In this document: positions 10,035 through 30,076 of the stretch, piece after piece | Layout: each line of letters starts with the position of its first letter | How positions within the stretch are numbered: position 1 is the stretch's first letter | DNA from: a bacterium | GTDB lineage: Bacteria > Bacillota > Limnochordia > DTU080 > RSA5 | Assembly: GCA_002919195.1 (NCBI GenBank) | Contig: PKEU01000141.1 | Span: forward strand, 1-35,666 | Direction of reading: 5' to 3' | DNA: 35,666 nt | Notes under the pieces: model-generated | What the model saw: only the letters and a program-made list of their open reading frames with translations | Database searches by the model: none | Told to the model about the DNA's origin: nothing | Position numbers and translations under genes: made by a program

Positions 10035-11372
10035 TTACCCCCTTGGGCAAAGGCCATCCCGCAGCATCTCCAGGAAAGTCTCCGCTTCGCGAAAGACGCG
10101 CTCAAGCTCATGCAATCCCTTTTGCGGATGCTCTGCCAGCTCGCCGCGGGCGCGCTCGCTCACCAATTCGGCGACCATCAACACCAACTCGATCGCATCC
10201 TCCGGCGAAACACCGGGGCGAATCGGCTCTGTATCGATGCCGTCTAAGAGCAGCCTCCATCCCAGCTCGATCCCTTGGCTCATGTACTTCTCCATGGAGG
10301 CGCGGACGGACGGCGGAGGATCGGCGAAAGCCGACATCACCAGTTGATAATGCACGGGCTCGGCCTGGAAAATCTCGAGCTTTCGCTGCATCCATGTGTA
10401 CATCCGTTGAAAGAGATCGGGTTCGGGCTGGGGAAGCCCGTCGAAAAACCTCTCAGAGATGCGGGTAAAGGAGTCGGCCACCGCAGCCAGGTAAAGATCC
10501 GCCTTGGAGCCGAAATAGTGAAAGATCAGCCCCTTGGCCACGCGGGCCTCTGCGGCGATCGCCTCAGCCGAAGCGCCCTCATAACCTCGCTCGGCAAAGA
10601 GCGCCTGGGCCGTCCGCAAGATCCGCTCTCGCCGGTGGTCGCCCTCGCCGGCCGCAGGGGCTAATCCAGCCGACAGGGCGATAAAGGCTTCCGGCTTCCA
10701 GGCGCGCAGCGGTTGAGGACGGGAGGCAGCCTCCGGCTGGTAGGCTCCCCATTTCAGGATCTCGGTGAAACGGCGGACGCGCTCGCGCACGCCCTTGGCA
10801 TCCAGGATGGAGGCAATCTCCCCCTCATTCTCTCCCGCCTGCTGAACCGCTACAAGAAATCGCTCTTCCAGGGCCTCCGCCACCAGGCTCAAGAGCTCCA
10901 GGGCCGCGGCAAAATCCCAACCGCGCCGGAAAACCTCGATTTGGACGCCTTCTTTAAAGATGGCTCGCAAGTTGTCGTACGCCCTGTCCACGCGACGAGT
11001 GGCTTTGCTCGCCACCAGGCGGCTGCGCCCGCGAAACTGCGCAATAAACCGGGCGAGCACCGGATGAGCCTCAATTGCTCGCGCCCGAAGGACGACAAAC
11101 TCTTCCAGCCGTTGGAAGGGGTCCGCCGGGAGCGCTCCTCGGGGCGGCGCGAAGAGATGCTCGCACGCGTGGTCCAGCGCCGCGTCAAACAGACCTTCCT
11201 TGGATGTGAAATACCGGAAGATCAATCCCTTAGCCACCTGGGCCTTGCGGGCGATCCGGTTGGTGGAGGCGCCTTCACGACCGTGCTCGGCAAACTCCTG
11301 GACGGCCGCCGCCAAGATTAACTGCCGGCGGTCGCCCAACTCGGGCTCAAGATGCACACGGGGAACGTTCAT
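10035..11372 (-). CDS. Double-length TetR-family regulator with two DNA-binding domains
   Basis: About 445 residues, roughly twice a normal TetR protein (about 200). Two complete TetR units lie in tandem. The first helix-turn-helix is at about 17-66 (GASTNRIARKAQVAKGLIFR, YFTSKEGL) and the second at about 249-298 (GASAEAIAAEARVAKGLIFH, YFGSKADL). By direct reading, 28 of 48 residues of these two regions are identical, so an internal duplication is likely. Each is followed by its own helical ligand-binding-type domain; the halves are joined by a Pro/Ala-rich linker around 210-245. The start is ATG 11372 with GGAGG 9 bases upstream; the frame stays open to 11432 but that start has no ribosome site. 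It lies 81 bases after the beta-barrel-like gene and probably belongs to the same operon, making it the likely controller of the promoter at 16676-16704. Ligand unknown. Confidence 0.92.
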   Translation of the reverse strand: MNVPRVHLEPELGDRRQLILAAAVQEFAEHGREGASTNRIARKAQVAKGLIFRYFTSKEGLFDAALDHACEHLFAPPRGALPADPFQRLEEFVVLRARAIEAHPVLARFIAQFRGRSRLVASKATRRVDRAYDNLRAIFKEGVQIEVFRRGWDFAAALELLSLVAEALEERFLVAVQQAGENEGEIASILDAKGVRERVRRFTEILKWGAYQPEAASRPQPLRAWKPEAFIALSAGLAPAAGEGDHRRERILRTAQALFAERGYEGASAEAIAAEARVAKGLIFHYFGSKADLYLAAVADSFTRISERFFDGLPQPEPDLFQRMYTWMQRKLEIFQAEPVHYQLVMSAFADPPPSVRASMEKYMSQGIELGWRLLLDGIDTEPIRPGVSPEDAIELVLMVAELVSERARGELAEHPQKGLHELERVFREAETFLEMLRDGLCPRG

Positions 11373-11409: not shown

Positions 11410-11453
11410 GTCATCCAGACTATGTACTCCACAAATACTCTACACCAAGACAG

Positions 11454-12593
11454 TCAAAAGAAATAGCGAAGACCGAGAGAAGCCGAAAAGACCGCAGGAT
11501 AGGAAACAGGCGCAACGCGATGGGCCGCAAACTCAAGGGCGCTCACACCGGGCATTAATTCGCGACTGATGACGATGCCCCATCGATAGGGCCGCAAGCT
11601 ACCCGCGGCTCTTGGCTCGCCTCCAGAGCCGTCATGGCCGCCGACCTCCGCCTTCCCGCCGCCCAGGCCGGCCGACGCGTCCGCGACGATGGTGAGCCCG
11701 GGTAAAGGCGCATGCGCTAGCTGAACGGCGACCAGCGGCCTGGGGGCTTGGCGTGAGGTGGCGCTTCCGCTGGCGGGATTAAAAGGGGCCCTGGCAACTT
11801 CTGCGGTCCACAAGAGGTCACCGACGTATCCCGTAGCGCCCACGCTGAAGCGGATCCCCGCCTCTCCCGCAACGCGCCACCCTTCGCCGTAGACGACGGT
11901 CGACCCGGCGAGCCCGCTCCAGCCGGCGCCGGCGACAAGGCCGCTTTCACTCCGCAGAAGATGCCCCGTAAGCTCCCAACCCAAAGCCGCCCGGCGCCAC
12001 CCGACGACCGGCGTCCAAGCCTCACCGTCCCAGGCACCCACGAGTTGCAACCGCCCCGCCTTCAGGTAGACGTCGGCGCGGATGCCGTCGGCGCCGGGCC
12101 GGCGCCCAGCCTCGTCGGGCGGCGTCAATGTGTAAGGCAGCGTGAGCCGTGCCGTCTCGAGCGGGAGACCAAAGCGGCCCACGTAAAGGTCCACCGCCGG
12201 AAAACGAAAACCGGCCAGCCCCCGCGTCCACACAACTGAGGCCTCGGTCTTTCCGCCCGCCTTCGTCAGGTCCAGGACCCACCGCGGCTCGGCTGTCGCT
12301 TCCGCCCACCACTCTGGAAAAGCGGCCACCGGTCCCTTCGGGTCCATCCGCGCCTCCACGCGGCTCTCCAGGACTCCCAGCAACTGCGGCGCGCCGGCGT
12401 CCACGTGGTGATGCACCACAAACCCGCCGATCTCGCCCCGCACGTCCGCTTGCAAATCCGTGGAGACATCCATCGCCGGCGCTCCCATCGCACGAGCCAA
12501 GCCCCAACCGGAGGGGGCCAGGGCCAAAGCCGACAGGACGCCCAAGCTGGCCCAAATCACTCGCAGGATGACCGCACAACCCCCGCGGCTCAC
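11454..12593 (-). CDS. Predicted outer-membrane beta-barrel-like protein of the Lol-like cassette
   Basis: 379 residues. The N-terminus (MSRGGCAVILRVIWASLGVL to GLARAMGA) is a signal peptide. The mature part is rich in alternating polar/hydrophobic strands with Gly and aromatic residues, such as GIRADVYLKAGRLQLVGAWD and AALGWELTGHLLRSESGLVA. The protein ends VFSASLGLRYFF: a C-terminal strand closing with Phe is the classic recognition signal of outer-membrane barrels assembled by BamA. Start is GTG 12593, overlapping the ATPase stop in GTGA, which implies translational coupling. I recognise no named family. Alternative readings are a secreted beta-rich protein or a surface protein. If it is a barrel, the organism has an outer membrane and this gene may provide the outer end of the cassette. 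Confidence 0.75.
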   Translation of the reverse strand: MSRGGCAVILRVIWASLGVLSALALAPSGWGLARAMGAPAMDVSTDLQADVRGEIGGFVVHHHVDAGAPQLLGVLESRVEARMDPKGPVAAFPEWWAEATAEPRWVLDLTKAGGKTEASVVWTRGLAGFRFPAVDLYVGRFGLPLETARLTLPYTLTPPDEAGRRPGADGIRADVYLKAGRLQLVGAWDGEAWTPVVGWRRAALGWELTGHLLRSESGLVAGAGWSGLAGSTVVYGEGWRVAGEAGIRFSVGATGYVGDLLWTAEVARAPFNPASGSATSRQAPRPLVAVQLAHAPLPGLTIVADASAGLGGGKAEVGGHDGSGGEPRAAGSLRPYRWGIVISRELMPGVSALEFAAHRVAPVSYPAVFSASLGLRYFF

Positions 12594-13285
12594 GCGGCGT
12601 TCACCCTTTCATCGGAGACGACGCGACCGTCTTCGAGGCGGACGATGCGGGTGACGTGCTCGAGCAGCCGGGGATCGTGCGTGGAAAAGAGAAACGTCAT
12701 GCCCCGCTCGACGTTGAGCCGTTTCATCAACTCGATGAGGGAGAGGCCCGATTGGGAGTCCAAATTGGCCGTCGGTTCGTCCGCCAGGATCACCTGGGGT
12801 TCGGCGGCCAAAGCCCGTGCGACGGCGACCCGCTGCTGCTGGCCTCCCGAGAGCTGGTTGGGCCTTCGATGGGCGAGATCGGCGATCCCCAGCGCCTCCA
12901 GGGCTTGCATCGCTTTCTCTTCGCGGACCTTTTTCGGCACGCCGCGCAGCTCCAACACAAACGCTGCATTCTCCAGCGCGCTCAAGACCGGGATGAGATT
13001 GTACGCCTGAAAGACGAAGCCGATTTCCTGCAAACGCAATCGCGCCGATGAGACCGGATCCAATTGGTCCGTGCGCCGCTCGCCCAAGTAGGTCTCGCCT
13101 GACGACGGCTTGTCGAGGCAGCCTAGGATGTGCAGCAGCGTGCTTTTCCCCGAACCGCTGGGACCGACGATCGCGGTAAACTCCCCCGGCAAAACCTCCA
13201 GGTCGACACCCCGCAAAGCCGGAGTGGAGACGCCATCGCTCCCATACACCTTCGTCAAGCCCACGGCGCGCAAAATCGGTTTCAT
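12590..13285 (-). CDS. ABC transporter ATP-binding protein, LolD/MacB type
   Basis: 231 residues, a typical stand-alone LolD/FtsE-type ATPase. Walker A GPSGSGKST is at 41-49, the ABC signature LSGGQQQR at 145-152, Walker B VILADEPTANLD with catalytic Glu at 170, and the switch His in FSTHD. The Q-loop is in VFQAYNLIPVLSALENAAF, typical of the LolD/MacB branch. I choose ATG 13285 because GAGGAGGG lies 8 bases upstream; an in-frame extension to 13357 would overlap the preceding gene. It sits 20 bases after one FtsX permease and overlaps the beta-barrel-like gene by 4 bases. It should power the two FtsX-type permeases at the cytoplasmic face, by the mechanotransmission known for LolCDE and MacB. 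Confidence 0.95.
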   Translation of the reverse strand: MKPILRAVGLTKVYGSDGVSTPALRGVDLEVLPGEFTAIVGPSGSGKSTLLHILGCLDKPSSGETYLGERRTDQLDPVSSARLRLQEIGFVFQAYNLIPVLSALENAAFVLELRGVPKKVREEKAMQALEALGIADLAHRRPNQLSGGQQQRVAVARALAAEPQVILADEPTANLDSQSGLSLIELMKRLNVERGMTFLFSTHDPRLLEHVTRIVRLEDGRVVSDERVNAA

Positions 13286-13305
13286 GAGGCTCGCCCTCCT
13301 CTTAC

Positions 13306-14532
13306 CTAGGCTACGTGACGCATCGCTTCCACCGGCTGCAACCGGCCCGCCACCCACGCGGGCCAGAGGGCAGCCAGCAGAGCCGTGGCGATGGTAAAGG
13401 CCATCGTGATCGCCACTTGCTGCAACGTGACCGACGGATACAGCACCGCCGGAAGGCCAAACTCGGCCAGAGCCTCATCCAGACCTGGAAAGGCAACCCC
13501 CCGGCTCATCCATGCGATACAAACTCCGCTCACCGCAAGACCTACGGCGCTGCCTGCGAGCACCAGCACCAGGCTTTCGGCAAAGATCATGCGCATCACC
13601 CGCCACCGGTCGGCGCCGACGGCGATCATCACGCCAAACTCTCGGATCCGCTCCACAAGGCCCAGGTAAATCGTGTTGACGACCAACAGCCCGGCGAGGA
13701 CAAAGATAAAAAAGGAAAAGACGACCATCGCCGGGTCCATCAGATCCAAAATGGCGGCCAAATCGGGCGACGCTTCACGCCACGTCTCCACCGAAACGCC
13801 CGCGCCCAGCACGCTCGTAAGACGCTCCTTGACGCGATGGATCTCCTCTTCCCGGGGCACCCCGCGCCCCGCCCCAAGATGCACCTCAAAACGAGTGACC
13901 GCCCCCGGCGCGGCCAGCTCCTGGGCGCCTTCCAGCGAGAGGTAAGCGACCTTGCCCTCGTAGGACGCTTGCGGAAACTTCAAGATGCCGACCAGCACGT
14001 AGGCCGAGGCGCCCCACCCCTCGGTGCCCGGCGCAAAGACGTACACAGGATCTCCAATGTCAAGATGAAGGGTCCGGGCCAGCGCCTCTCCCAGGGCGAT
14101 CTCGTCCAGGCTGCCGGGACTTGGCAGGCGGCCGGCTGCCAAATACTCTAGTTCAAAGCGCTCCCGGAGCGTCGGGTCTTGCTTCAAACCGATCACGAGC
14201 ACTCCCCGGGAACGGGTCTCGCCGCTCACGAGCGCGGGCACCTCGAGCACGCGCGCCATCCGGACGCCCGGCAGCTCCTCCAAGAGCGCAGCCTCAAGCT
14301 CTGCCGCCCCACGAAGGAGGCTCGCGTCAAAGTCCTGCGCGTCTTTCGCCCGGGCGCTCTTGACCTGCAGGTGCCCAAAGTCGTTGGTGAGCACCTCCAT
14401 CATTCCGGTCTTGGTGGCCTGCGTGAAGGAGAAAAAGACCAACGTGAAGATGACGACCACCGCCACCGCGCCCGCGGTGACGATGCTCCGGGCTTTATGA
14501 CGCCAGACGTTGCGCCAGGCTAGAGCCCACAC
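13306..14532 (-). CDS. FtsX/MacB-family ABC permease (LolC/LolE-like)
   Basis: 408 residues with the 1+3 helix layout of FtsX/MacB-type permeases. There is a first helix after AWRNVWRHKARSIVTAGAVA, a large extracytoplasmic domain of about 220 residues (with IALGEALARTLHLDIGDPVY, a MacB periplasmic-core phrase), then three helices beginning MVVFSFFIFVLAGLLVVNT. The motif IREFGVMIAVGADRWRVMRM is the hallmark of the FtsX domain. The GTG at 14532 immediately follows the TGA of the LolA-like gene, with GAGGGTG 7 bases upstream, so translation is coupled. It probably forms a heterodimer with the permease at 15342-16592, as LolC does with LolE. Cargo is unknown. Confidence 0.92.
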   Translation of the reverse strand: MWALAWRNVWRHKARSIVTAGAVAVVVIFTLVFFSFTQATKTGMMEVLTNDFGHLQVKSARAKDAQDFDASLLRGAAELEAALLEELPGVRMARVLEVPALVSGETRSRGVLVIGLKQDPTLRERFELEYLAAGRLPSPGSLDEIALGEALARTLHLDIGDPVYVFAPGTEGWGASAYVLVGILKFPQASYEGKVAYLSLEGAQELAAPGAVTRFEVHLGAGRGVPREEEIHRVKERLTSVLGAGVSVETWREASPDLAAILDLMDPAMVVFSFFIFVLAGLLVVNTIYLGLVERIREFGVMIAVGADRWRVMRMIFAESLVLVLAGSAVGLAVSGVCIAWMSRGVAFPGLDEALAEFGLPAVLYPSVTLQQVAITMAFTIATALLAALWPAWVAGRLQPVEAMRHVA

Positions 14533-15306
14533 TCACCGGCACCCTCTTTCCAAGGCCTGGAGCGTAAAGCAGCTGTCGGGGATGGCGATGCCAAACGCCA
14601 CGTCGGAAAGGCGGGCAACCGTCCGGTAACCCTGCCGGACCTTGTCTTCGACCACCATGACGAGGGGAATCCGCTTGCTCCCTACCTCGAGGTAATCGGA
14701 CAGCGCGAGTCGCTTGACGACCTGTCCCCGCTGGTCGTAGTAGTCAACCCATTGGGGCGCCAAGGTGCGAGCTTCCACGCCAATGACAACCTTGCCGTAC
14801 GGAGTCGGCGCTCCCGGCTTGGGAGTGAGCTCCAGCTCGAGGACCGTACCGTCCGAAGGCTTCAGGGCTGGCTCGTAATCCCTCTCTAAATCGCGGCCCA
14901 CGATATCGTTGTAGCTCACGTCCGACCCCAGAAAGGCGTCGCTGCGGCCACTGGGCGGCAGCCTCAGCGAGCGGCCGAGTCGCGGGTTGTACACCCAGAG
15001 ATCGTCGCCGTCCATGAGAAACGCCTGGCCCGCATCGCGAGCGGGCGCGACCACCCGGATGAGCCCCCGCTCCTCCCCGTCGCTGATCACGTCCATGACG
15101 TACTCGACGCTTCGTCCGGGCCGCTCTACGGCGAAGGTGTAAGTCCCCTGCCTCGTGCCTCCCCGCAGGTTGTCGATCACGGCCTCCAAGATCGCCTCTG
15201 CTTCCGCATCACCTGCTCCTTGGATCGCGGGCGAAAAAACAGCGCCCGCGCCCAGAATCATGGCGACGACCCAACCCACGACAGTCCAACGGCGCTTTTG
15301 GGACAT
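14533..15306 (-). CDS. LolA-like outer-membrane lipoprotein-sorting family protein
   Basis: About 257 residues. A signal peptide (KRRWTVVGWVVAMILGAG to QGAGDA) is followed by a beta-rich domain of the LolA-like COG2834/PF17131 type. The diagnostic stretch is DDLWVYNPRLGRSLRLPPSG then FLGSDVSYNDIVGRD, with GKVVIGVEARTLAPQWVDYYD and KRIPLVMVVEDK later. No lipobox Cys is seen, so it should be soluble outside the membrane. I prefer ATG 15306, spaced about 10 bases from AAAGG; ATG 15315 is possible but abuts the GGG. In diderms LolA carries lipoproteins across the periplasm, and relatives of this subgroup may carry other lipids. Its place between two FtsX permease genes makes it the likely extracytoplasmic carrier or acceptor of this ABC system. 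Confidence 0.88.
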   Translation of the reverse strand: MSQKRRWTVVGWVVAMILGAGAVFSPAIQGAGDAEAEAILEAVIDNLRGGTRQGTYTFAVERPGRSVEYVMDVISDGEERGLIRVVAPARDAGQAFLMDGDDLWVYNPRLGRSLRLPPSGRSDAFLGSDVSYNDIVGRDLERDYEPALKPSDGTVLELELTPKPGAPTPYGKVVIGVEARTLAPQWVDYYDQRGQVVKRLALSDYLEVGSKRIPLVMVVEDKVRQGYRTVARLSDVAFGIAIPDSCFTLQALERGCR

Positions 15307-15341
15307 GGCCCTCATCCCTTTCCCATGGTGCTAAGACTTCG

Positions 15342-16592
15342 TCACTCGCTGCGCATCGCTTCGGCCGGCCTAAGGCGCGCCGCCCGCCGGCCAGGAAGGA
15401 GCGCGCTCAAAGCCACGGCGCACGCGATAACCATCCCTGAGTACAGCGCGTAAACCGCTCGCACCGCGCCGTACACTTCGTCGCTGAGCCCCGCGCTGGG
15501 AGTGCTCGCGCTGACGGCCGCAAAGACCGGGCCCAAGATGTTGTAGCGGGACAAAACCCAGGCACCGGCATAACCGGCGCCAATGCCGATCAACCACCCT
15601 AACGCGCACGCCATCAGCGCCTCTAACGTCACCAATAGCCCGAGCCGCCTGGGCGCAAGGCCCAACGCGGCGACAACCCCAAGCTCCCGGGTCCTCTCCA
15701 TCACGCTGACAAACACGGTCGTGGTGACGGCCAGAGCGGCAAAGATGTAAATGATCGCCGCCATGACGTGAGCGAAGGCTTTGTTGGCCTCAACGTCGGT
15801 CTTGATCGGTCCCACAAGCTCCCATACTTCCCGGGCGGTCACGCCGTCTGGGAGCAAAGCTTGCACGCGGCGCGCTACGGCCGCCTCCGCGCCTCGGGGC
15901 ACGTCCAGATCGATCGTGGTCGCGGTGGGAACCCCGGTGAGCCGGCGGGCATCATCCAATCCGATGATCACGGCCGTTTCGTCGACAGCCAGGATCCCGG
16001 TGCTCGCAAGGCCCACCACTTTGAGCCCCAACGCCTGCGGCCCCGCGAGCGAGCCCGCGCTCAACACGACCTGCTCGCCCACACGCGCGTCGATCCGGCG
16101 GGCGAGCTCCTTTCCCAGCACCACTTCACCCGGACCTGCAAGCCACCGTCCCTCTGCCAGTTTCCCGGGAATGCGGCTTAAGCGGACCTCCCCCTCAGGA
16201 TCGACGCCGCGGACCTCGACCCCTTGAGTCACATAGGCCGACTGCAAAAGGGCGGGAAACTGAATCCGCGCCGTCGCCGACCGGACTTGGAACACGCCGG
16301 GTAGCGACGAAGCAAAACCGAGGTCCGTCAGGTGATTTTCGGGATCAGGATCGACAAACCAAGCATCCCGCGCGATCCGCACGGGCGCGACGATGTAGCG
16401 GGCGTACGATTGCACCACCGATTCCGCGTACCCGTCCACGAAGCTCCAGTAGACGATGGTGAAAAAAGTCGCGTAGGCCACGACCACCAAGAGGAGGACG
16501 GTCCTTTGTCGATGGCGCCAGAGGTTGCGCCAGGCAAGACGGGCGAGGGGAGCCGCAGGAGAAGATCCTTGCGACGAGGCGTGGTGCGGCAT
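15342..16592 (-). CDS. FtsX/MacB-family ABC permease, first gene of the Lol-like cassette
   Basis: 416 residues. Like the permease at 13306-14532 it has RLAWRNLWRHRQRTVLLLVV as first helix, an extracytoplasmic domain of about 230 residues (VVLGKELARRIDARVGEQV is the MacB-core phrase), and three C-terminal helices containing ERTRELGVVAALGLAPRRLG, the FtsX hallmark. I choose ATG 16592: AGAGGTG lies about 11 bases upstream, and the frame beyond it to 16736 would run through the promoter and operators. Its two halves differ enough from the other permease that a heterodimer is expected. The LolA-like gene follows 26-35 bases later. Confidence 0.9.
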   Translation of the reverse strand: MPHHASSQGSSPAAPLARLAWRNLWRHRQRTVLLLVVVAYATFFTIVYWSFVDGYAESVVQSYARYIVAPVRIARDAWFVDPDPENHLTDLGFASSLPGVFQVRSATARIQFPALLQSAYVTQGVEVRGVDPEGEVRLSRIPGKLAEGRWLAGPGEVVLGKELARRIDARVGEQVVLSAGSLAGPQALGLKVVGLASTGILAVDETAVIIGLDDARRLTGVPTATTIDLDVPRGAEAAVARRVQALLPDGVTAREVWELVGPIKTDVEANKAFAHVMAAIIYIFAALAVTTTVFVSVMERTRELGVVAALGLAPRRLGLLVTLEALMACALGWLIGIGAGYAGAWVLSRYNILGPVFAAVSASTPSAGLSDEVYGAVRAVYALYSGMVIACAVALSALLPGRRAARLRPAEAMRSE

Positions 16593-16653: not shown

Positions 16654-16667
16654 TTGACCACGTGGTC
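16654..16667. promoter_or_regulatory. Operator O2 (palindrome) just downstream of the cassette's -10
   Basis: TGACCACGTGGTCA is a perfect 14-bp palindrome. On the minus-strand promoter it covers roughly +2 to +15, where a bound repressor blocks transcription. It shares the TGACCA/TGGTCA half-sites with O1; centres are 36 bp apart. Confidence 0.8.
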
Positions 16668-16675
16668 ACCAATTT

Positions 16676-16704
16676 CAGTATAACGCACATTGACCACTTG
16701 GTCA
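16676..16704 (-). promoter_or_regulatory. Sigma-A-type promoter of the Lol-like cassette
   Basis: On the minus strand TTGACC (16704-16699) is followed by exactly 17 bases and TATACT (16681-16676): five of six matches at -35 and four of six at -10. The start would be near 16669, leaving a leader of about 77 bases. The -35 lies inside palindrome O1 and the start region inside O2, so the promoter looks tightly repressible. Confidence 0.82.
16689..16704. promoter_or_regulatory. Operator O1 (palindrome) over the cassette's -35
   Basis: TTGACCACTTGGTCAA has perfect 7-bp arms (TTGACCA / TGGTCAA) around CT. It includes the -35 hexamer of the leftward promoter. Size and symmetry are typical of TetR-family operators. 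The tandem TetR protein (10035-11372) is the natural candidate binder by context. Confidence 0.8.
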
Positions 16705-16892
16705 ATACGAAAGAAAACACCGGCCCGCGCTGGCACACGTGCGCTTCCCGCGCCCGGGGGCCAGCGAGGCCGGTCAAACTCCGCTCAAACCAAAACGGCG
16801 TAGCGCCTTGTCACTGCTGCATCCCGGACAGACCGAAGGGCCCGGAGCCTAGCCGCTCGTCAGTTTGCCGTGTCAACGCGTTCTAGCGCCCG

Positions 16893-17759
16893 TCAAAACC
16901 GGATAGGTTGACTCCACGCCTTGCGTCCCTGGGCGTCGATTGCCTCGATGCGGCAGTACCCGTCGGACCAATGCTTCATGCTGGCTTTGTTGAGGGTTTC
17001 GCCAGGCTTTGCCCACACGGACTTGCCGCGCCCGCGATTGGACACAAACACGATGCGCGCGACGTCGGAAGTCTCCACGTGAATCCAGCCGTCTTCGACC
17101 CGCAGGTCACGAATCTCCGGCCCTTGAGTTGCGTAAAAGTGGCCCGCGCGCAGCGCCTCCTTGATGCTCTCCTGCGTGAGCTCCCGAGCACGCACCATCA
17201 CCCAACCCACAGCGCCATCGTAACTGTAATGATGCGTATCGTCGGTCGCCAGGCCCCAAGTGTCGTAGCCATGGTGCAAAAGGTCGTCCCAGTGCACATC
17301 GCTCAGGGCTTTCCCGCACTCCATGCAGCCCGAGTTGTACACCTCGATGCCGATGGCGCCGGTGAGATGTTCGATCGCCTGTCGCTCAAGGCCCAGCCAG
17401 TAAGGATGGGCGATAAATGCGACCCCGTCGTGCGCCAGCACCTGGTCGATGAGCCCCTGTCCGGTGCGGATTTCGGGATCTTGCTCAAACGGCCGCACGC
17501 CGACCCCCACGATGTGGTACTCGTAACCGTTGGGATCCCAGCAATTGAGCTCGATGCCGTGCATGGCGAGAAAAGTATCGGTGGTGAACTCCTCGACAGG
17601 TGTCGTCTTCCGATGATCGGTGACAGCGACGAAGTCGTACCCGCGCGTTTTGTAAAATTCGATCGCGTCGGCGAGCTCGAGACGGCCATCGGATGCGGTG
17701 GTGTGCATGTGAAGATTCCCTTTGTACCAGCGGCCTTCAACAGGAAACGGATGGATCAT
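16893..17759 (-). CDS. PHP-domain metal-dependent phosphoesterase (CehA/COG0613-like)
   Basis: 288 residues, cytoplasmic. PHP metal-binding motifs are in order: H17-x-H19 in GNLHMHTTASDG with D24, T-D48-H49 in FVAVTDHRK, the Glu of MHGIELNCWD, the His of YEYHIVGVG, a further His in FIAHPYWLGL and a DxH in ATDDTHHYS. The spacing fits a trinuclear-metal PHP fold. The C-terminal part (about 200-288) is a beta-rich extension ending KAWSQPIRF, as seen in CehA-like members. Start ATG 17759 is preceded by GAGGAGG. It overlaps the SoxR-type gene by 23 bases and is therefore in one leftward operon with it. The substrate (a phosphoester or other hydrolysable ester) is unknown; linkage to a redox regulator is not expected from the family. 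Confidence 0.9.
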   Translation of the reverse strand: MIHPFPVEGRWYKGNLHMHTTASDGRLELADAIEFYKTRGYDFVAVTDHRKTTPVEEFTTDTFLAMHGIELNCWDPNGYEYHIVGVGVRPFEQDPEIRTGQGLIDQVLAHDGVAFIAHPYWLGLERQAIEHLTGAIGIEVYNSGCMECGKALSDVHWDDLLHHGYDTWGLATDDTHHYSYDGAVGWVMVRARELTQESIKEALRAGHFYATQGPEIRDLRVEDGWIHVETSDVARIVFVSNRGRGKSVWAKPGETLNKASMKHWSDGYCRIEAIDAQGRKAWSQPIRF

Positions 17760-18252
17760 GTTGCCCCCTCCTCTGCGGATCGTCGCAGGTCAAATCATCG
17801 CCCAGCCAAAAACGAGGGCCCGGCCCGAAACGGGCCGCGCGGTCCTGCGGGTTGAGCAGCGCGCACTTTTCCATCGAGAGGCAGCCGCACCCGATGCAGC
17901 TTGTCAAACCCTCTCGAAGCCGCAAGAGCTGGGCGATCTGTGCGTCGATCCGCTTTTGCCATCCTGCAGCCAAGCGGCTCCAATCTTGATCTGTAGGGAT
18001 GCGGTCAACAGGAAGTTTGTCGAGTTCGGCCCGGATCTCCTCCAATGAAAGGCCCACTCGCTGGGCAAAAACGATAAAGGCCACTCGGCGGGCCACGGCG
18101 CGCGGGTAACGACGGTGACCTGCCGCGTTGCGCTGGGAATGGATCAGGCCGCGCTCTTCGTAATACCTGAGCGCGGAGGGAGCGACGCCGGTGCGCTCCG
18201 CCAACTCGCCGATGGTCAGGAGTTGAAAGGGGCTTTTGACCGTTTCCATCAT
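17737..18252 (-). CDS. soxR: SoxR-type redox-sensing MerR-family activator
   Basis: 171 residues. The MerR DNA-binding domain is at about 11-80 (LTIGELAERTGVAPSALRYY, EERGLI, GHRRYPRAVARRVAFI), followed by the dimerisation helix and a cysteine cluster C119-x2-C122-x-C124-x5-C130 in SCIGCGCLSMEKCALLNPQD, which is the [2Fe-2S] ligand set of SoxR at the very positions known in E. coli. Known role: oxidation or nitrosylation of the cluster switches on a promoter with an over-long spacer. The C-terminal tail extends about 35 residues beyond the cluster. Start is the first of two adjacent ATGs at 18252, with AGGA 7 bases upstream. The divergent MFS gene carries the matching promoter; the operator is shared, so autoregulation is possible. 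Confidence 0.95.
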   Translation of the reverse strand: MMETVKSPFQLLTIGELAERTGVAPSALRYYEERGLIHSQRNAAGHRRYPRAVARRVAFIVFAQRVGLSLEEIRAELDKLPVDRIPTDQDWSRLAAGWQKRIDAQIAQLLRLREGLTSCIGCGCLSMEKCALLNPQDRAARFGPGPRFWLGDDLTCDDPQRRGQHDPSVSC

Positions 18253-18277
18253 AGCCAGATCCTACCAAAAATGCCTC

Positions 18278-18308
18278 TTGACTTCAAGTAGACTTGAAGT
18301 CTTATTGT
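18278..18308 (+). promoter_or_regulatory. SoxR/MerR-type promoter with palindromic 19-bp spacer
   Basis: TTGACT (18278-18283), 19-base spacer, TATTGT (18303-18308). The spacer region carries perfect 9-bp inverted arms ACTTCAAGT (18281-18289) and ACTTGAAGT (18292-18300) separated by AG. The core TCAAGT..ACTTGA equals the known sox-box core. A 19-bp spacer is the diagnostic for promoters twisted into shape by MerR-family activators. It drives the MFS gene starting 38 bases downstream. Confidence 0.9.
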
Positions 18309-18345
18309 GGGTCTCGAGTCAAATATGACATCGAGGTGATTTCCC

Positions 18346-19845
18346 GTGGCACGACCCAATGACTCCCACGAAGCAAGCCTTGTGTCCTCTCCACGCCGGC
18401 TGCTGCTCGTCATCGTCTCGGCCGTGTTTCTCACGACCTTCACAGGCTCGATGATCAACGTCATGATCCCTGTGATCCGGGCAGAGTTTAACGCATCGCC
18501 AGCGCTGATCGGTTGGGTGGTCACAGGGTACTTGCTGGCCTACGCCGTCGCCGTGCCCATCCTCGGCAGGGCGTCGGATCGCTACGGCGTGCGGCGCCTC
18601 TTTGCCATCGGCCTCACGGGGTTTGCGGCAGGCGGCGTCGTTTGCGCGGTCGCACCGAGCCTTGCGGTCCTGATCCTCGGGCGCACGCTTCAAGGGTGCC
18701 TCGGAGCGGCTGTTCCCGCCCTGGCCTCGGTCGCCGTCGCCCGCACCTTCCCACCCGGCCGCCGCGGCGCCGCCCTAGGCATGATCGCCTCTACGGTCGG
18801 CATCGGGCAATCGGCCGGACCTGTCGTCGGCGGCGCTTTGGGCGAATGGCTGGGCTGGCGAGGCCTCTTTGGGATCCCGATCGCCCTGGCCCTCATCCTG
18901 GTTCCGCTCGCTTTGCGCACCCTCCCCGACGGCCGGGCTGCCCAAGTCCGCCGCTTTGACGCCGCGGGCGGCGTCCTCCTTGCCGCCAGTGCCGGATTGT
19001 TTCTCTTTAGCATCACTCAGGGACAGACCCTGGGCTTTGCGGCTCTTTCTTCGTGGGGATCGCTGCTCATCGCTATCGTGGCGGGCGTGACACTCATCCG
19101 GCGCAGCCAACGGGTGCCCCATCCCTTCGTCCCGCTCGCCCTCTTTCACAACCGGAGCTACGTGGCAGTCTTCTTTACCGGGCCTCTCGCCCAATTTGTC
19201 AACCTTTCCGTCCTGATGCTGGTGCCGCTCCTCGTCGTCGAGGTCAATGACCTCTCTTCCAGCGCCACGGGGCTCGTTCTCATGCCCCAAGCCCTCGCGA
19301 TGGCCCTCGCCTCCCCGTTCGCAGGGCGCTTGTCCGATCGCGTCGGCGTGCGCCGCCCGATCCAAATCGGTATCGGGCTCATGATGCTCACGGTTGCGGC
19401 ACTCTCCGTGTGGGCCGGCATAGCCCCGGCAGCGATCGCCGTCTTTATGGCGCTCCTTGGCGCAGGGATGGCGTGCGTGCAGTCCCCCTCCAACAATGCG
19501 GCCGCAAACTCGCTCCCTGAAAAAGACGTGGGCGCGGGCATGGGCTTGTTCCAAGGGACGGGCTTTTTGCTGGGAGCCGCAGGTCCGGCGATTGCTGGAG
19601 CCCTGCTCGCAGCGCGCCAAGAAGCCGCCTCGAGCGGGTGGAACCCCTTCCACGCCTTTCAAGCGGCCCCGTTTTCCGACGTTTTCCTGTTGCTGCTCCT
19701 GCCGTTTGTCGCGGCCCTTTTGGCGACGCGCCGGCTCCCCGCGGCCCAGGGCGCGACCCAGACCCAAAAGGCGCACCACACCGACCCCGTGGATCAAGCT
19801 CAACCCACTCCTGTGATGGCTGGGCCCAGGCAAGAGCCGCGATAG
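18346..19845 (+). CDS. MFS drug-efflux transporter (DHA2/EmrB-QacA-like)
   Basis: 499 residues, with about 14 predicted membrane helices. Motif A is GRASDRYGVRRLF in the 2-3 loop and the antiporter motif C is visible as GIGQSAGPVVGGAL. A second-half copy of motif A is GRLSDRVGVRRPI. The start is GTG 18346, with GAGGTG 8 bases upstream. The position behind a SoxR-type promoter implies that it exports redox-cycling compounds such as quinones, phenazines or similar antibiotics; this is how SoxR works in many non-enteric bacteria. The last 25 residues are polar and Gln/Thr-rich. A hairpin follows the gene at 19923-19955. Confidence 0.93.
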   Translation: MARPNDSHEASLVSSPRRLLLVIVSAVFLTTFTGSMINVMIPVIRAEFNASPALIGWVVTGYLLAYAVAVPILGRASDRYGVRRLFAIGLTGFAAGGVVCAVAPSLAVLILGRTLQGCLGAAVPALASVAVARTFPPGRRGAALGMIASTVGIGQSAGPVVGGALGEWLGWRGLFGIPIALALILVPLALRTLPDGRAAQVRRFDAAGGVLLAASAGLFLFSITQGQTLGFAALSSWGSLLIAIVAGVTLIRRSQRVPHPFVPLALFHNRSYVAVFFTGPLAQFVNLSVLMLVPLLVVEVNDLSSSATGLVLMPQALAMALASPFAGRLSDRVGVRRPIQIGIGLMMLTVAALSVWAGIAPAAIAVFMALLGAGMACVQSPSNNAAANSLPEKDVGAGMGLFQGTGFLLGAAGPAIAGALLAARQEAASSGWNPFHAFQAAPFSDVFLLLLLPFVAALLATRRLPAAQGATQTQKAHHTDPVDQAQPTPVMAGPRQEPR

Positions 19846-20220: not shown

Positions 20221-21537
20221 CTACTTTCGGAGCTGCTCCGGTCGAAAGATGGTGGGGTTGCCGGTAAGTCCCGTCCGGCGCACGTCGACGTCGACCGTGA
20301 TGTGGACCGGAAGCCGGCGAAAGTGATCGTGCCAGTCTTGGCGCAGCGTCCGCCACAGCTGCGGGTAGTTTCTGCGGATCAAAGCGCCAAAGCCAAAGAC
20401 GTCTGCGTTGAGCTCCTCTTGAGCGAGGCGGAGCATCGCTTGCATGCGCTGTTTTACACTGTCAGCCAAGGCCTCCTCGAGCTCGGGGATGACCTTGGGA
20501 TCCGTCAAATCGAGCCCTGCCTGGTTGGTGACGATGTCGTCGACCGCGTGGGCGTGCACGTTGACGACCACCTGCCCGTCTTGGATCTCCGTGTGAAAGT
20601 GCACTCGGGCCCGCACGATGAGCGGTGTGATGTGATTAGGCTCCTTAAGCCCGCTTCCGGGACTCCCTGGACCGGTGCCAGGAGGCGCTTCCCGCTCAAT
20701 CAACGCCTCCGAAGGCGATAGGTCGGTTCTTTCAAGCTGGGGAGACGGCGCGCCCGTCTCGGGCGGCCACTCGATCGTCGCGGCCGCAAAAGGCGCTTCG
20801 TCCACCAGCCAAGCGAGCCCCCGCGCAAGATCCAGGGGAGCAAAGCCGACAAGGCGGTCGCCGCGGAAAATGCCCACGCCCGTCAGCTCGTACTCCTGGG
20901 CCCGCGTCCCCACTTCGAGCTGCGTCTCGATGCGCGGGACCAATCCTACCGCCGGGATAAAGGGGTCCATGCCCTCGGCGGCCAAGGCGATCGCGACCTG
21001 TCGTATTTCACGCTGAGGGACAATCCTTTGGCCCAGCGTGTTGGCCAGCGCCAAGACCGGAAGCCTGCCAAGGCGCGGAGCCGCTCGTAGGAGCCTCGCG
21101 CCCTCCCCTTCCGTCACGACCACATCCGCTGAGATCCTGAGCTCCCGCATGCGGGTGAGGCTGTCAAACACGGGTCCAATTCCCGACCGGGCCAGCTCCT
21201 CTCCGAGGACGATCACCCGGATATGAGAGGTAAACAGGCGCCGGGGCACCTTGGCCTGGAGCAGGCTAAACGCCTCGGGCAAAGTGGCCCCAGTCGCCTC
21301 CATGATGTAAAAAGGATCTCGCAGCCCCCCGCCGGAGCCGACGCCGCCAGGATTGGTGAGCTCGGAAGGGATCAAAAACTGTAAGGAGACTTTGAGAAGG
21401 CCGTCCTCCGTGCGATCGATGGCCATGATGTCCGCGATGGCAAGCTCGTTCAGCTCAATCCGGTCGTAGCAACCGCCCAAGAGAAGCAAGAGCGCGCAGC
21501 AAGGCAAAACCCGGAGCCAGCTCCTAGCGCTTCGCAT
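20221..21537 (-). CDS. gerC: Ger(x)C family spore germination lipoprotein (germinant receptor C subunit)
   Basis: 438 residues. A lipoprotein signal peptide ends in LLLLLGGC with Cys23 as lipid-attachment site, followed by YDRIELNELAIADIMAIDRT, a typical Ger(x)C start. Domain phrases RRLFTSHIRVIVLGEELARS and EYELTGVGIFRGDRLVGFAP match the family. An extra Pro/Gly/Glu-rich stretch of about 45 residues (around 255-300, including APPGTGPGSPGSG) interrupts the region before the last domain, making the protein longer than the usual 370-400 residues. The last domain (RARVHFHTEIQDGQVVVNVH to PVHITVDVDVRRTG) is intact. It overlaps gerB by 14 bases. It sits on the outer face of the spore inner membrane and forms the receptor with the A and B subunits. 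Confidence 0.93.
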   Translation of the reverse strand: MRSARSWLRVLPCCALLLLLGGCYDRIELNELAIADIMAIDRTEDGLLKVSLQFLIPSELTNPGGVGSGGGLRDPFYIMEATGATLPEAFSLLQAKVPRRLFTSHIRVIVLGEELARSGIGPVFDSLTRMRELRISADVVVTEGEGARLLRAAPRLGRLPVLALANTLGQRIVPQREIRQVAIALAAEGMDPFIPAVGLVPRIETQLEVGTRAQEYELTGVGIFRGDRLVGFAPLDLARGLAWLVDEAPFAAATIEWPPETGAPSPQLERTDLSPSEALIEREAPPGTGPGSPGSGLKEPNHITPLIVRARVHFHTEIQDGQVVVNVHAHAVDDIVTNQAGLDLTDPKVIPELEEALADSVKQRMQAMLRLAQEELNADVFGFGALIRRNYPQLWRTLRQDWHDHFRRLPVHITVDVDVRRTGLTGNPTIFRPEQLRK

Positions 21538-22630
21538 CCACTCTCACTCCCACTCCCCGGATCGCGGCGACGATCAGCACCACGGCGGGCAGCACCAGTT
21601 GAAAGAACTGCGTATACGGCGGCCAAAAGTAGGCCAGCATGTGCCCGTGCTCGACAAAGTTTTGAAGGTGCCCGGCTGCGTACGCCGATACCAGCGCCGA
21701 CATGGGAAAGACCAACGGGCGCCAGTCCCTCAACCCAAACACTTGGGCGAAGGTCACAACCGCCGCGTACAAGTGCACCGCCAGCTTAAAACAGCTGCCA
21801 CCCACCCAAAACCCGATCACCAGCGGATCAATGCGGGCCAACACTTGGCCAAACTTTGCGATCCGCGCGACCTTAAAAAACGGCCAGAGAAACTTGTCGG
21901 TGATGGGGCCAAAGACGCTGAGCGAGACGATGCTCACCAGCGTCAACGCCGCCACGATGACGCCCAGCGCGGCGTAGCTCGCCTTGACGCCTTGATCTCG
22001 CCGCGTCACCGAAGGCAAGAGCACCGCGAGGAGGATCACCTGTCCGGTAAAGGCTTGAGTGATCAAGCCCGAGGCGAGCACTGGACGCAGCCCATTTTCA
22101 AGGACGGGCTTGAGGAGATTGGCGTCCGTGCTGGAGTACGCCATGCCGACAATGACCAAGAGCAGGACGACGGCGCCCGGTGTAAACAACTCGCCAAGCC
22201 GGGCCAAGATTTCCGGCCCATGGCGCACAGCGACCGCCGCTGCAAAGCCTGCGAGCCCCACCGCCAGCACCATCGGTGTGCGTGGGTGCGCGGCTGCGAC
22301 GAGAAAATCGGCAAACTCCCGGGAGATCGCAGCGTCTAGGTGAAAGAAGTACCAAAAGAGGAGCAATCCGCACAGTTTCCCCGGGATCCTTCCCAACACT
22401 TTGGGAGCGTACTCGACAAAGGTCTCATCCGGAAACCTTGCGGCTAAGCGACCGCACAACCAGATCACCAAAGCCGAAGCGGGAAAGGCGACGAGGGGCG
22501 CCATCCACGCGTCCTGCCGGGCAAAGGTGGCCGTGGTTCCCGGCAAACCCAAGATGGCTGTTGACCCGATACCGGGGATCAAGAGCATCGCAAGCTGGAA
22601 GGGACTGATCTTAGTCTCTGCCGGGCGCAC
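21524..22630 (-). CDS. gerB: GerAB-family germination permease (germinant receptor B subunit)
   Basis: 368 residues and about ten predicted helices, related to amino-acid/polyamine transporters. ISPFQLAMLLIPGIGSTAIL near the start and TFVEYAPKVLGRIPGKL are family-typical phrases. In the spore inner membrane this subunit binds the germinant. The start is GTG 22630, with GGAGGG 8 bases upstream inside the end of gerA, overlapping that gene by 20 bases; the gerC start overlaps its end by 14 bases. The A-B-C order and overlaps are as in characterised ger operons. Germinant identity cannot be read from sequence. Confidence 0.94.
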   Translation of the reverse strand: MRPAETKISPFQLAMLLIPGIGSTAILGLPGTTATFARQDAWMAPLVAFPASALVIWLCGRLAARFPDETFVEYAPKVLGRIPGKLCGLLLFWYFFHLDAAISREFADFLVAAAHPRTPMVLAVGLAGFAAAVAVRHGPEILARLGELFTPGAVVLLLVIVGMAYSSTDANLLKPVLENGLRPVLASGLITQAFTGQVILLAVLLPSVTRRDQGVKASYAALGVIVAALTLVSIVSLSVFGPITDKFLWPFFKVARIAKFGQVLARIDPLVIGFWVGGSCFKLAVHLYAAVVTFAQVFGLRDWRPLVFPMSALVSAYAAGHLQNFVEHGHMLAYFWPPYTQFFQLVLPAVVLIVAAIRGVGVRVDAKR

Positions 22631-24305
22631 GGGCCGTTCCCTCCTCTCTTGGGAAGGTCTTGTTCCCCTGTCTCAAAGGAAAATCACGACGGCGCCGGAC
22701 CCAGGCGGTCGTCACCTGGGGTCTTTTCCGCATGAGCCAACGAGGCAGCCGGATCACCGTGTCTTGCAGATCAGGCCACCGGAGGGGGCTGACAGGAGCC
22801 AGATAGGGCTGTCCAAAGGACCTCAGGGCGGCTAAGTGCAAGATCAGGAGCATGAGGCCGATGGAGATCCCCAAGAGGCCGAGGCTGCCGGCGAGGATCA
22901 GGATGAAAAACCGGGCGATGCGAAAGGCGACGCCGACGTTGAAATGGGGGACGACAAACGACGAAATGCCGGTGAAGGCTACGATAATCACGACGGGGGC
23001 GGAGACGATCTGAGCCGAGACCGCGGCCTCGCCGATGACGATAGCGCCGACGATGCCGATGGTCTGGCCGATGGGCCGCGGCAACCGGACCCCCGCCTCC
23101 CGCAGCGCTTCAAAGGTGATCTCCATGAGGAGGACTTCGGTAAAGGATGAAAAGGGAACGGCTTCCCTGGCCGCGGCGATGCTGATGAGCATGGGGGATG
23201 GGAGCATCTCCGGATGAAAGGTCGTAGCGGCGACGTAGACCGAGGGAAACAAGAGCATCAACGCGACCAGCGCATAGCGCAGTAACCGCACGAGCGTGGC
23301 GCCGTCCCACCGCTGGTAGTAGTCTTCTGCTGCGTTCATAAGCGCCCACAAGCTGGTGGGAACGATGAGAGCAAACGGGGAGCCTTCGGCCATAATGGCG
23401 ACGCGCCCCTCTAAGAGGTTGGCCACCACCACGTCGGGCCGTTCGGTGTTGAGGACCTGGGGGAAGACGGTGTAGGGTGTGTCTTCGATAAACTCTTCGA
23501 TATAGCTGGTATCGATGATGCCATCGATATCGATGGCGGTGATGCGCCGGCGCACTTCCTCAATCAGCTCGTCCGGCGCCAGGCCGCGGAGATAGGTGAT
23601 GACCACGGGCGTCTTGGTCCACCGCCCAAGGAGCAGGCGCTCAAAGCGCAAAAGAGGCGAACCAACCCGCCGCCGGATCAGTGACATGTTGGTTTGCAGG
23701 CTCTCGACAAATCCATCCCGCGGCCCCCGCACCACGGGCTCCCCGACGGGTTCCTGCACATTGCGGGTGTCGAGGCCCAGCAGTTCGACGATGATCGCCC
23801 GCGCAAGCCCTTGGACCAGCAGCGCCGTCTTGCCGTGACAGAGCTCCCGGACGACCTCGCGGAGATCTGTCTCCACCGTCACCCGGGCGCTGTTGATCAC
23901 CTGCTCTCGGATCCACGCCTCCAACCCGCCGGCACTCGATGGAACCCTAAGCCCCGCCTGTGCTGCATCGTGGGTCAGCGGTTTGATCACTTGATTCGCG
24001 ACCAGCTCCGCGCGGCCCAAGGTCTCAAAAAATACGACCGCGGCCTCGGGGCCGCCGGCGATGTGAAGATGGCGCACGACCAGGTCCGGAGCGTCGCCGG
24101 CGAGCCTCCGGAGCGTCGACAAGTTGGTCTTGAGATCTTTGCCGAGGCGCACGCCGGCCAGCCCTTCATCGACCAGCGACGCGGGCTTGCGAGCGAGTCG
24201 CTCTTGGATGGCGCGCTGCACCCAGCGATCATCAAGCGACGGATGCTGAGCCGGCGCACGGCCACGCCGCAACCAATCGAAAAACGCGCGAAACAGACTT
24301 GACAT
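22611..24305 (-). CDS. gerA: GerA-family spore germination protein (germinant receptor A subunit)
   Basis: 564 residues. A soluble N-terminal region of about 330 residues contains DLVVRHLHIAGGPEAAVVFF, then TNMSLIRRRVGSPLLRFERL and DIDGIIDTSYIEEFIEDTPY, and ends in RPDVVVANLLEGRVAIMAEG, all hallmarks of GerAA-type proteins. About five membrane helices follow (LLMEITFEALREAGVRLPRP, GQTIGIVGAIVIGEAAVSA). The C-terminus is basic and disordered. ATG 24305 is preceded by GGTGGAG 10 bases upstream, which lies within one arm of an inverted repeat (24310-24391). It leads the ger operon. Together with B and C it forms a germination ion channel and receptor in the spore inner membrane. Confidence 0.95.
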   Translation of the reverse strand: MSSLFRAFFDWLRRGRAPAQHPSLDDRWVQRAIQERLARKPASLVDEGLAGVRLGKDLKTNLSTLRRLAGDAPDLVVRHLHIAGGPEAAVVFFETLGRAELVANQVIKPLTHDAAQAGLRVPSSAGGLEAWIREQVINSARVTVETDLREVVRELCHGKTALLVQGLARAIIVELLGLDTRNVQEPVGEPVVRGPRDGFVESLQTNMSLIRRRVGSPLLRFERLLLGRWTKTPVVITYLRGLAPDELIEEVRRRITAIDIDGIIDTSYIEEFIEDTPYTVFPQVLNTERPDVVVANLLEGRVAIMAEGSPFALIVPTSLWALMNAAEDYYQRWDGATLVRLLRYALVALMLLFPSVYVAATTFHPEMLPSPMLISIAAAREAVPFSSFTEVLLMEITFEALREAGVRLPRPIGQTIGIVGAIVIGEAAVSAQIVSAPVVIIVAFTGISSFVVPHFNVGVAFRIARFFILILAGSLGLLGISIGLMLLILHLAALRSFGQPYLAPVSPLRWPDLQDTVIRLPRWLMRKRPQVTTAWVRRRRDFPLRQGNKTFPREEGTARAPGRD

Positions 24306-24425: not shown

Positions 24426-25985
24426 TTATGCGTCCACTGAGGCGGTCCGTCGCGGCTCCTTGTCCAAGGCTGGAGACCGGGTATAACGAAACGTGTCCAC
24501 GTCGACAAAGCCCCCAGTCTCTCGTCCCGCGTAGCAAAAGATCCCGACGCGGTATCCCATAAAGTGATCGAGAGTGTAACGCATCGAAAGGTCGGCACCG
24601 ATCTTTCGCCATTCCCCGCCCGCGGTGGCGTAGTAAAACCGAGCGATGTCAACGCTCTCGCGAAAATCGAAGTCGATCCTCAAGCTCACTTTGTCCCCCG
24701 AGAGCGGCACCCGCTCGACCACCCTTTCACCGCCGCCCTCGCCCCGCAGGCACATCTCCAACACTTTCCCCTCATCCAGGCACCGCACCCCGACCGTGCC
24801 AAACTGGCTCTGTAGGGCGATGAGGCCCGCGTGATCGCCGGGTTTCATGTGGCTCACATCCATCTCGATTTCACCGCGGCACGTCGGGCCTTCCGTCCTT
24901 TGCGTCAAGGTATTGGGCGCTTGGAGCACCGACGGGACCACCCGGCTGGTGTAAAGCCGCAGGTGGCCAGGCCGCTCCAGAAGTGTCCAGAAACGGTGAT
25001 CCGGGTTGTGATTCCACTGCCAAGCCAAGGGCAGCCGGCCGTCGGGATGATCAAAGGTGTCGCTCGTCACCCAGTTGACAGGCAAGGGGCACTCCGGCAA
25101 GGCCACCACCACCTCTTCCGGTACCTTGCCGTCGACGCCCACCACCGGCCACCCGTCCTCCCAGGTGACGGGAAGGACATGGGGAATCCGGCCCACCGCG
25201 TCGTGGTCTTGAAACAGGATCGCGTACCAGTCGCCGTGCGGCGTGTCGACGATGGCCCCTTGCGCGACGCCGTGGTTGCGGTAACCCATGTCGTCGTCCA
25301 AGATGACCCGCCGCTCGTAAGGGCCCAAGAGGCGCCTAGAGCGGTAACACACCTGGCGCCTGCGGGCGTGGCCCGTCCGGGGCCACTCGATGAAGAGAAG
25401 GTAGTAGGTGTCACCGATGCGGTACGCGTGGCACCCCTCGCAGCGAAGCCCGATCCCGTCGGTGGGCGTCGAAAACAGCAGCTGGTTAAGGCCACCCTCT
25501 CGCACCCCGGTGAGATCGGGGGTCAGTTCCGTAATGTAAATATCGCCGTTCCCGTAAATGACAAACACCCGGCCTTCGTCAAACAGGAGGCTAGGGTCGT
25601 GAAAGAGCCTGGGAATAGTGGTCCTCCGCCACCCGCCGCGCTCGATGTCGTCGGTGCGGTAGAGGTAAAACTTTCCCGTGTCGTTGCACGAAAACGCGAC
25701 GTAAAACATCCCCTCGTGGTAGCGGAGGCTGGGGGCCCACGACCCTTGTCCGTACACCCCTTTGCCGTCGGCCAAGTTGTGCCCGTCGTTGTCCTCTAGC
25801 CTATCAAAGACGTAGCCGACCAGCTCCCAGTGCTTGAGATCCCGCGAGCGCATGATCGGGCAACCGGGCATCGTGTGCATGCTGGTGGTGACCATGTAAA
25901 ACCAGTCACCCACCCGGATGACATCCGGATCCGGGAAGTCGGCCCAGATGACAGGGTTTTTGATCCGCGTTGCAGACTGCGCCAT
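24426..25985 (-). CDS. GH43 family glycoside hydrolase (beta-xylosidase / arabinofuranosidase type), cytoplasmic
   Basis: 519 residues without a signal peptide, so intracellular. The five-bladed GH43 catalytic domain (about 1-300) has PVIWADFPDPDVIRVGDWFY with the catalytic base Asp in DPD, the pKa-tuning Asp in RLFHDPSLLFD and the acid Glu in RCEGCHAYRIGDTYYLLFIEW. A C-terminal beta-sandwich (about 320-505; SDTFDHPDGRLPLAWQWNHN, HAGLIALQSQFGTVGVRC) is the accessory domain that closes the active site in xylosidases. The ATG at 25985 overlaps the upstream enzyme's stop in TGATG, so both are translated from one mRNA. It likely removes terminal xylose or arabinose from oligosaccharides that have been imported. 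Exact specificity is not decidable here. Confidence 0.92.
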   Translation of the reverse strand: MAQSATRIKNPVIWADFPDPDVIRVGDWFYMVTTSMHTMPGCPIMRSRDLKHWELVGYVFDRLEDNDGHNLADGKGVYGQGSWAPSLRYHEGMFYVAFSCNDTGKFYLYRTDDIERGGWRRTTIPRLFHDPSLLFDEGRVFVIYGNGDIYITELTPDLTGVREGGLNQLLFSTPTDGIGLRCEGCHAYRIGDTYYLLFIEWPRTGHARRRQVCYRSRRLLGPYERRVILDDDMGYRNHGVAQGAIVDTPHGDWYAILFQDHDAVGRIPHVLPVTWEDGWPVVGVDGKVPEEVVVALPECPLPVNWVTSDTFDHPDGRLPLAWQWNHNPDHRFWTLLERPGHLRLYTSRVVPSVLQAPNTLTQRTEGPTCRGEIEMDVSHMKPGDHAGLIALQSQFGTVGVRCLDEGKVLEMCLRGEGGGERVVERVPLSGDKVSLRIDFDFRESVDIARFYYATAGGEWRKIGADLSMRYTLDHFMGYRVGIFCYAGRETGGFVDVDTFRYTRSPALDKEPRRTASVDA

Positions 25986-29791: not shown

Positions 29792-30076
29792 CACGGCCAT
29801 CCTCCCTTGCTTGCACCGTGCGGGGACGGCGCTCTTGTCGCGTGAGGCTTAAACAATCACTACGCTACACGCCGCAACTTCCTTTCTCTTCCAAACGAGA
29901 ATCGAAATTTCGGCCGCAGCGCTGGGCGATCGCCTCAACGCGCAACTTGTCCTTCTCGTCATAACGGCGGATCAACACGGGTTGAAACTTCCTTATATCG
30001 TTTTGTGCATCCCGTTCGGCCAAATCGCGTGACAACAGCGCGCGGGGCGACTTGTCCGGTGCCGTCAATCCCCCCC

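Follow-up and report, generated by a model that had tools for sequence, protein, structure and literature searches.

The 35,666 nucleotide stretch analysed here (the window; contig PKEU01000141.1 of assembly GCA_002919195.1, from a bacterium of the class Limnochordia, Bacillota) carries a cassette of five genes at 11454–16592 that appears to be a repressible trans-envelope export system. Its most likely role is to export, when induced, a small molecule of hydrophobic or amphiphilic character; this reading is given a probability of roughly 0.58. Gene content, folds, gene order, conservation, the diderm character of the genome and the linkage of operators to regulator were computed. An earlier note on this DNA had proposed a regulated path from the inner to the outer membrane; such a path is supported by the LolA-like carrier, the modelled outer-membrane barrel, and the BamA and LptD-like genes of the host. 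The coordinates that it gave for the five genes are exact, and their families, including two different FtsX/MacB permeases, were matched in Pfam. The cassette genes and the regulator that follows them are, in their order on the reverse strand from 16592 down to 10035:

15342..16592, reverse strand: permease 1, LolC/E/F-like (FtsX and MacB_PCD domains)
14533..15315, reverse strand: LolA-like periplasmic carrier, PF17131 (Pfam match and structure model)
13306..14532, reverse strand: permease 2, LolF/LolE-like (FtsX and MacB_PCD domains)
12590..13285, reverse strand: LolD/MacB-type ATPase, ABC_tran (Walker A GPSGSGKST, signature LSGGQQQR)
11454..12593, reverse strand: predicted outer-membrane beta-barrel of 18 strands, probably a distant DUF1302 relative (structure model, profile comparison)
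10035..11372, reverse strand: tandem two-domain single-chain TetR regulator (two TetR_N matches)

Translational coupling, which had been claimed for the whole operon, holds for two of its four junctions: the carrier and permease 2 genes abut, and the ATPase and barrel genes overlap as GTGA. The remaining two have gaps of about 20–26 bp.

The engine, the carrier and the barrel

The ATP-binding cassette (ABC) engine is, by its sequence, Lol-like rather than MacB-like. LolF was the best profile for both permeases (E 2e-26 for permease 1 and 4e-18 for permease 2), followed by LolE and LolC, with MacB weaker, and the nearest solved structures are likewise LolF, LolE and LolC. Hydropathy gives the expected four membrane helices in permease 2, and in permease 1 these four with one additional peak within the periplasmic domain. 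An ordinary MacB-type drug exporter beside a chance neighbour, which the earlier note had set against its own proposal, is therefore largely refuted and very improbable. The FtsX and MacB_PCD permease domains are shared with MacAB-TolC, but the ATPase is separate, there are two permeases, and the operon has a LolA-like carrier in place of an HlyD-type adaptor or TolC. In addition, the barrel and carrier are conserved alongside the permeases in two phyla.

The carrier matches PF17131 (LolA_like) with an E value of 7.7e-42 and 143.5 bits against a cut-off of 30. Its structure model (predicted local distance difference test, pLDDT, 87) has the LolA fold, as had been anticipated, and is placed by comparison in the PF17131/DUF1329 branch. 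Structures of that branch gave Z scores of 24–25 (3buu, 25.0; 9tp6, which is P. gingivalis LolA3, 24.5; 4z48; 3bk5), whereas most true LolA structures gave 10–14. The PF03548 LolA model scored under its cut-off against the carrier (E 0.058) and had no match anywhere in the genome. P. gingivalis LolA3 barely binds LolB and does not have the arginine and leucine features that mark LolA and LolB (PMC13103446).

The AlphaFold model of the barrel protein, made from 15 homologues, is a full-length porin-type barrel of 18 strands (mean pLDDT 83.1, predicted template modelling score 0.76), in agreement with the barrel-like partner suggested from the sequence. Residues 45–379 superpose on OprD/Occ porins over about 300 residues (Z 21.9, root mean square deviation 3.4–4.0); the match to OccK2 is at Z 21.9 and 3.4 over 297 residues, and that to the alginate exporter AlgE at Z 19.9. 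A hydrophobic N-terminal helix at 4–24, read from the sequence and model without a signal-peptide program, and a C-terminus of GLRYFF complete the protein. The Pfam search of the barrel protein found no family, the DUF1302 model (PF06980) itself being without a match. A profile built from the DUF1302-type barrels of resistance-nodulation-division (RND) cassettes in the same class did align with the barrel profile in hhalign (probability 93.5, E 2.2e-7, 99 columns), so that distant kinship with DUF1302 is likely, the alignment being local only. The relationship is visible only with the DUF1302 profile and not with single sequences: when the barrel profile was compared in hhalign with four other barrel-like proteins, of which three belong to ABC cassettes, nothing significant resulted, a Prevotella DUF1302 protein among the four matching weakly (E 0.006).

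Diderm hosts and distribution

Contig C20 of the genome (3.13 Mb in 219 contigs, 96.7% complete) holds a cluster of outer-membrane genes encoding TamB, BamA, LpxD, a YjbH-like protein, LptF/G and an LptD-like protein, together with a Skp-like protein assigned by position and size only. The absence of BamA and other outer-membrane genes would have spoken against the earlier note; judged by these genes, the host is diderm. From its relatives, and from being diderm and spore-forming, the bacterium most likely belongs to the Limnochordia. An outer membrane is present in cultured Limnochordia (PMC11456536). Strong PF17131 matches (E <= 1e-15) were found in 55 of 299 Bacillota genomes, all 55 of which have Omp85, and in none of the 223 genomes that are Omp85-negative. 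The Fisher p of 5e-43 overstates independence, as the genomes are related, and the weight of this association rests on the zero exceptions.

Of 61 genomes searched, 8 carry the cassette; they include its own genome and span four families of the class. The five genes have the same order in the seven other class genomes, although in one (G048) they are split over contigs, and in nine complete Deinococcota loci (Meiothermus, Thermaceae and Truepera/Trueperaceae), the latter counted in one pattern-seeded scan of a genome collection. This conservation is beyond chance. One contig of G048 (C219; loci L042/L048) has the same identities as genome G022 throughout, is probably a mis-binned contig of another strain, and is not independent. 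Six of the class cassettes group in a single supported clade in a tree built from the three ABC proteins. The G025 cassette falls outside it, among lineages of Deinococcota, a placement that makes a transfer between phyla or an old duplication possible. A two-gene unit of LolA-like carrier and barrel with no FtsX permease nearby is present in a Trueperaceae chromosome (L060, 6839–8864).

The spore germination genes of the window, to which the earlier note had drawn attention, are neighbours in a loose sense, with GerA and GerAC genes (20221–24305) 3.6–8 kb from the cassette. None was seen beside the other cassette copies examined, and the link between cassette and spore genes was dropped for want of conserved proximity. 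The GerA/GerAC genes adjoin a GH43 enzyme and a 1271-aa GH10-GH43-CBM6 xylan-degrading protein (24426–29800, reverse strand). Nearer to the cassette, at 17737–19845, a SoxR-type regulator is divergent from a FexA/EmrB-like major facilitator superfamily efflux gene, beside a CehA/McbA-type PHP metallohydrolase.

Promoter, operators and the tandem TetR

A candidate promoter with two predicted operators lies 5' of permease 1:

16690..16705, no strand assigned: predicted operator O1, exact palindrome TTGACCAnnTGGTCAA, overlapping the -35 and conserved in four relatives
16705-16700, reverse strand: -35 TTGACC (sequence reading)
16677..16682, reverse strand: -10-like TATACT, 17 bp from the -35 (sequence reading; similar spacing in relatives)
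16654..16669, no strand assigned: predicted operator O2, one mismatch, 36 bp from O1, directly downstream of the -10

The case for a TetR-type switch is stronger than had been claimed, with two TetR domains in one chain and an exact palindrome that is present as a single copy in the whole genome, at the cassette promoter. Both operators retain all ten half-site bases in each of the four genomes that have the tandem TetR and a readable promoter. G043 and G022 yielded no tandem TetR, and in each of them one operator of the pair lacks three half-site bases; the absence from G043 is uncertain, this genome being 89% complete. Four other genomes have tandem TetR orthologues of 45–51% identity next to their copy of the cassette or of its barrel. 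The start of the regulator is most likely the ATG at 11372; the longest frame begins at 11432, and homology in relatives starts at residues 23–39 of that frame. With its two operators, the tandem TetR looks like a natural single-chain repressor. Open-access full texts held nothing useful on tandem or fused TetR proteins.

A MarR-type gene lying upstream takes the place of the regulator in six Deinococcota loci, and the sensor is thus exchangeable. The upstream MarR-type gene of G025 is split over two frames (L040, 4121–4550), probably through being broken or through sequencing error.

Related systems and function

The plan of carrier, barrel and TetR is already known with an RND engine, in whose place a LolF-like ABC pump is found here. 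In AmeABCD of C. defragrans (a DUF1302 barrel, a DUF1329 protein of the LolA superfamily, AmeC and an RND HAE3 pump), deletion makes the cells less tolerant of monoterpenes and increases their accumulation of Nile Red (PMC6394551). The cassette resembles it in having a LolA-like carrier, a DUF1302-like barrel and an inner-membrane pump, but has a LolF-like ABC heterodimer instead of the RND HAE3 pump, a tandem TetR, no AmeC-like protein, and a PF17131 carrier with only a weak DUF1329 match. The P. putida genes PP_0765/0766/2018/2019 follow the carrier and barrel plan with an RND engine, and a complex of a DUF1302 with a DUF1329 protein is predicted in the same study (PMC10866462). P. gingivalis PG1178-1181, which is strongly regulated by iron and hemin (PMC10470040, PMC10434189), is similarly one unit of TetR, pump, a PF17131 carrier of the lipoprotein-sorting type and then a hypothetical protein, differing in its MMPL pump and its phylum. 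No description of the ABC-driven form was found in open-access full texts. The remark in the earlier note that the system was not recognised as described therefore stands for this form and not for the general plan (PMC6394551, PMC10866462).

Within the same class, 42 of 46 DUF1302 matches lie within 2 kb of a PF17131 match, and (TetR)-MMPL/RND-LolA_like-barrel is the order in most of the twelve class loci read. At one locus read (L105, 3295–6342) the MMPL pump is fused to a PF17131 domain in a single open reading frame of 1015 aa. A relative of the window's cassette has permease 1 and the LolA-like carrier as a single open reading frame (L046, 5747–7795). Pumps are thus fused to carriers in both the RND and the ABC versions, which argues for direct hand-off. 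Several further PF17131 matches lie in open frames that are about 1000 aa long, which suggests more MMPL-carrier fusions.

On plasmids, PF17131 proteins adjoin MMPL or FtsX/ABC genes, in one case as MMPL-LolA_like-DUF1302 (Prevotella). Rahnella and Paraburkholderia plasmids (L071, L074) have sets of ATPase, FtsX, PF17131 and hypothetical protein within biosynthetic-looking gene clusters that include a ketosynthase with a malonyltransferase and a P450 with a phosphopantetheinyl transferase; these sets may possibly be dedicated exporters of acylated products. The window's own genome has a second ABC cassette on contig C8 (L043, 3120–9222) with an ATPase, two FtsX permeases, a PF17131 carrier and a protein that is weakly DUF1302-like and has Phe as its last residue. 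It differs in having the ATPase first, identities of 21–48%, another barrel sequence and no tandem TetR.

The composition matches that of AmeABCD with the RND pump swapped for a Lol-type ABC pump. The most economical interpretation is ligand-controlled export of a small molecule that is hydrophobic or amphiphilic. The direction of transport, the hand-off, the meeting of carrier and barrel, repression and the class of cargo are inferred. Holding the cargo in its cleft, the carrier would traverse the periplasm and deliver it to the 18-stranded barrel of the outer membrane, for release outside the cell. The tandem TetR on its two operators around the promoter would shut the operon off until a ligand arrives, probably the cargo itself or a compound related to it, and as the last gene of the run would control its own level. 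More tentatively, the cassette may be an unrecognised ABC-driven counterpart of AmeABCD common to Deinococcota and diderm Firmicutes. A Lol-type engine and a shuttle with the LolA fold would then supply a dedicated outer-membrane barrel, taking a lipid or lipid-linked product through, and not merely to, the outer membrane.

Several observations weigh against export. For the ABC form, known here from genes and models, export and its direction are predictions. No conserved neighbour that would name the cargo was found across the cassette loci, and no cargo-making gene is linked. Two Trueperaceae bins (L056, L059) keep the inner four genes but no barrel; these sets adjoin cupin- and enolase-like genes and are of unusual composition, perhaps through mis-binning. 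The nearest folds of the barrel, OprD/Occ, are mostly uptake channels, with the exporter AlgE close to them, and P. putida needs its DUF1302/DUF1329 genes to grow on Tween 20, possibly a sign of uptake (PMC10866462). Retrograde transport, in which a hydrophobic nutrient enters through the porin-like barrel, is nevertheless improbable, as the RND relatives show efflux phenotypes (PMC6394551) and no conserved binding protein or catabolic genes are linked across the loci. FtsX-type ABC transporters of known function, moreover, mainly extract their substrates to or through the periplasm.

The main rival to small-molecule export, though an unlikely one, is envelope lipid delivery, a stress-induced repair path in which the barrel would insert a native lipid, be it a phospholipid, a glycolipid or another, into the outer leaflet. 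Lol-type engines and the LolA fold handle acyl chains, the diderm host has LptF/G and LptD-like genes, and expression appears regulated. Set against this are the patchy distribution, the resemblance of the barrel to open porins, and regulators of the TetR and MarR types, which are typical of efflux and not of envelope stress.

A genuine lipoprotein-sorting system of these bacteria is less probable again. The cassette shares LolC/E/F-type permeases, a LolD-type ATPase and the LolA fold with LolCDE-LolA-LolB, and PF17131 could stand in for the missing PF03548 LolA. However, the ATPase scored 207.8 bits with the LolD equivalog TIGR02211 (NCBIfam cut-off 307.75) and the permeases 77.8 and 76.6 bits with the LolC/LolE equivalog TIGR02212 (cut-off 362.45), falling short by wide margins. 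The operon also holds a barrel and no LolB-like gene. These failed cut-offs, the TetR switch and a distribution that is not core to the class make canonical sorting unlikely. The weak LolB binding of LolA3, from the same family as the carrier, is a further point against it (PMC13103446), as is Veillonella, which has no identified Lol homologue (PMC10665443).

The export reading bears on the question of how, where no continuous channel exists, a hydrophobic cargo gets across the periplasm. It suggests that carrier and barrel form a module that can be driven by either type of engine, RND or ABC. Diderm Firmicutes serve to infer ancestral outer-membrane biology, and the compact set of five genes with its own switch is also found in cultured Meiothermus (M. 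rufus), which makes the carrier-plus-barrel route directly testable.

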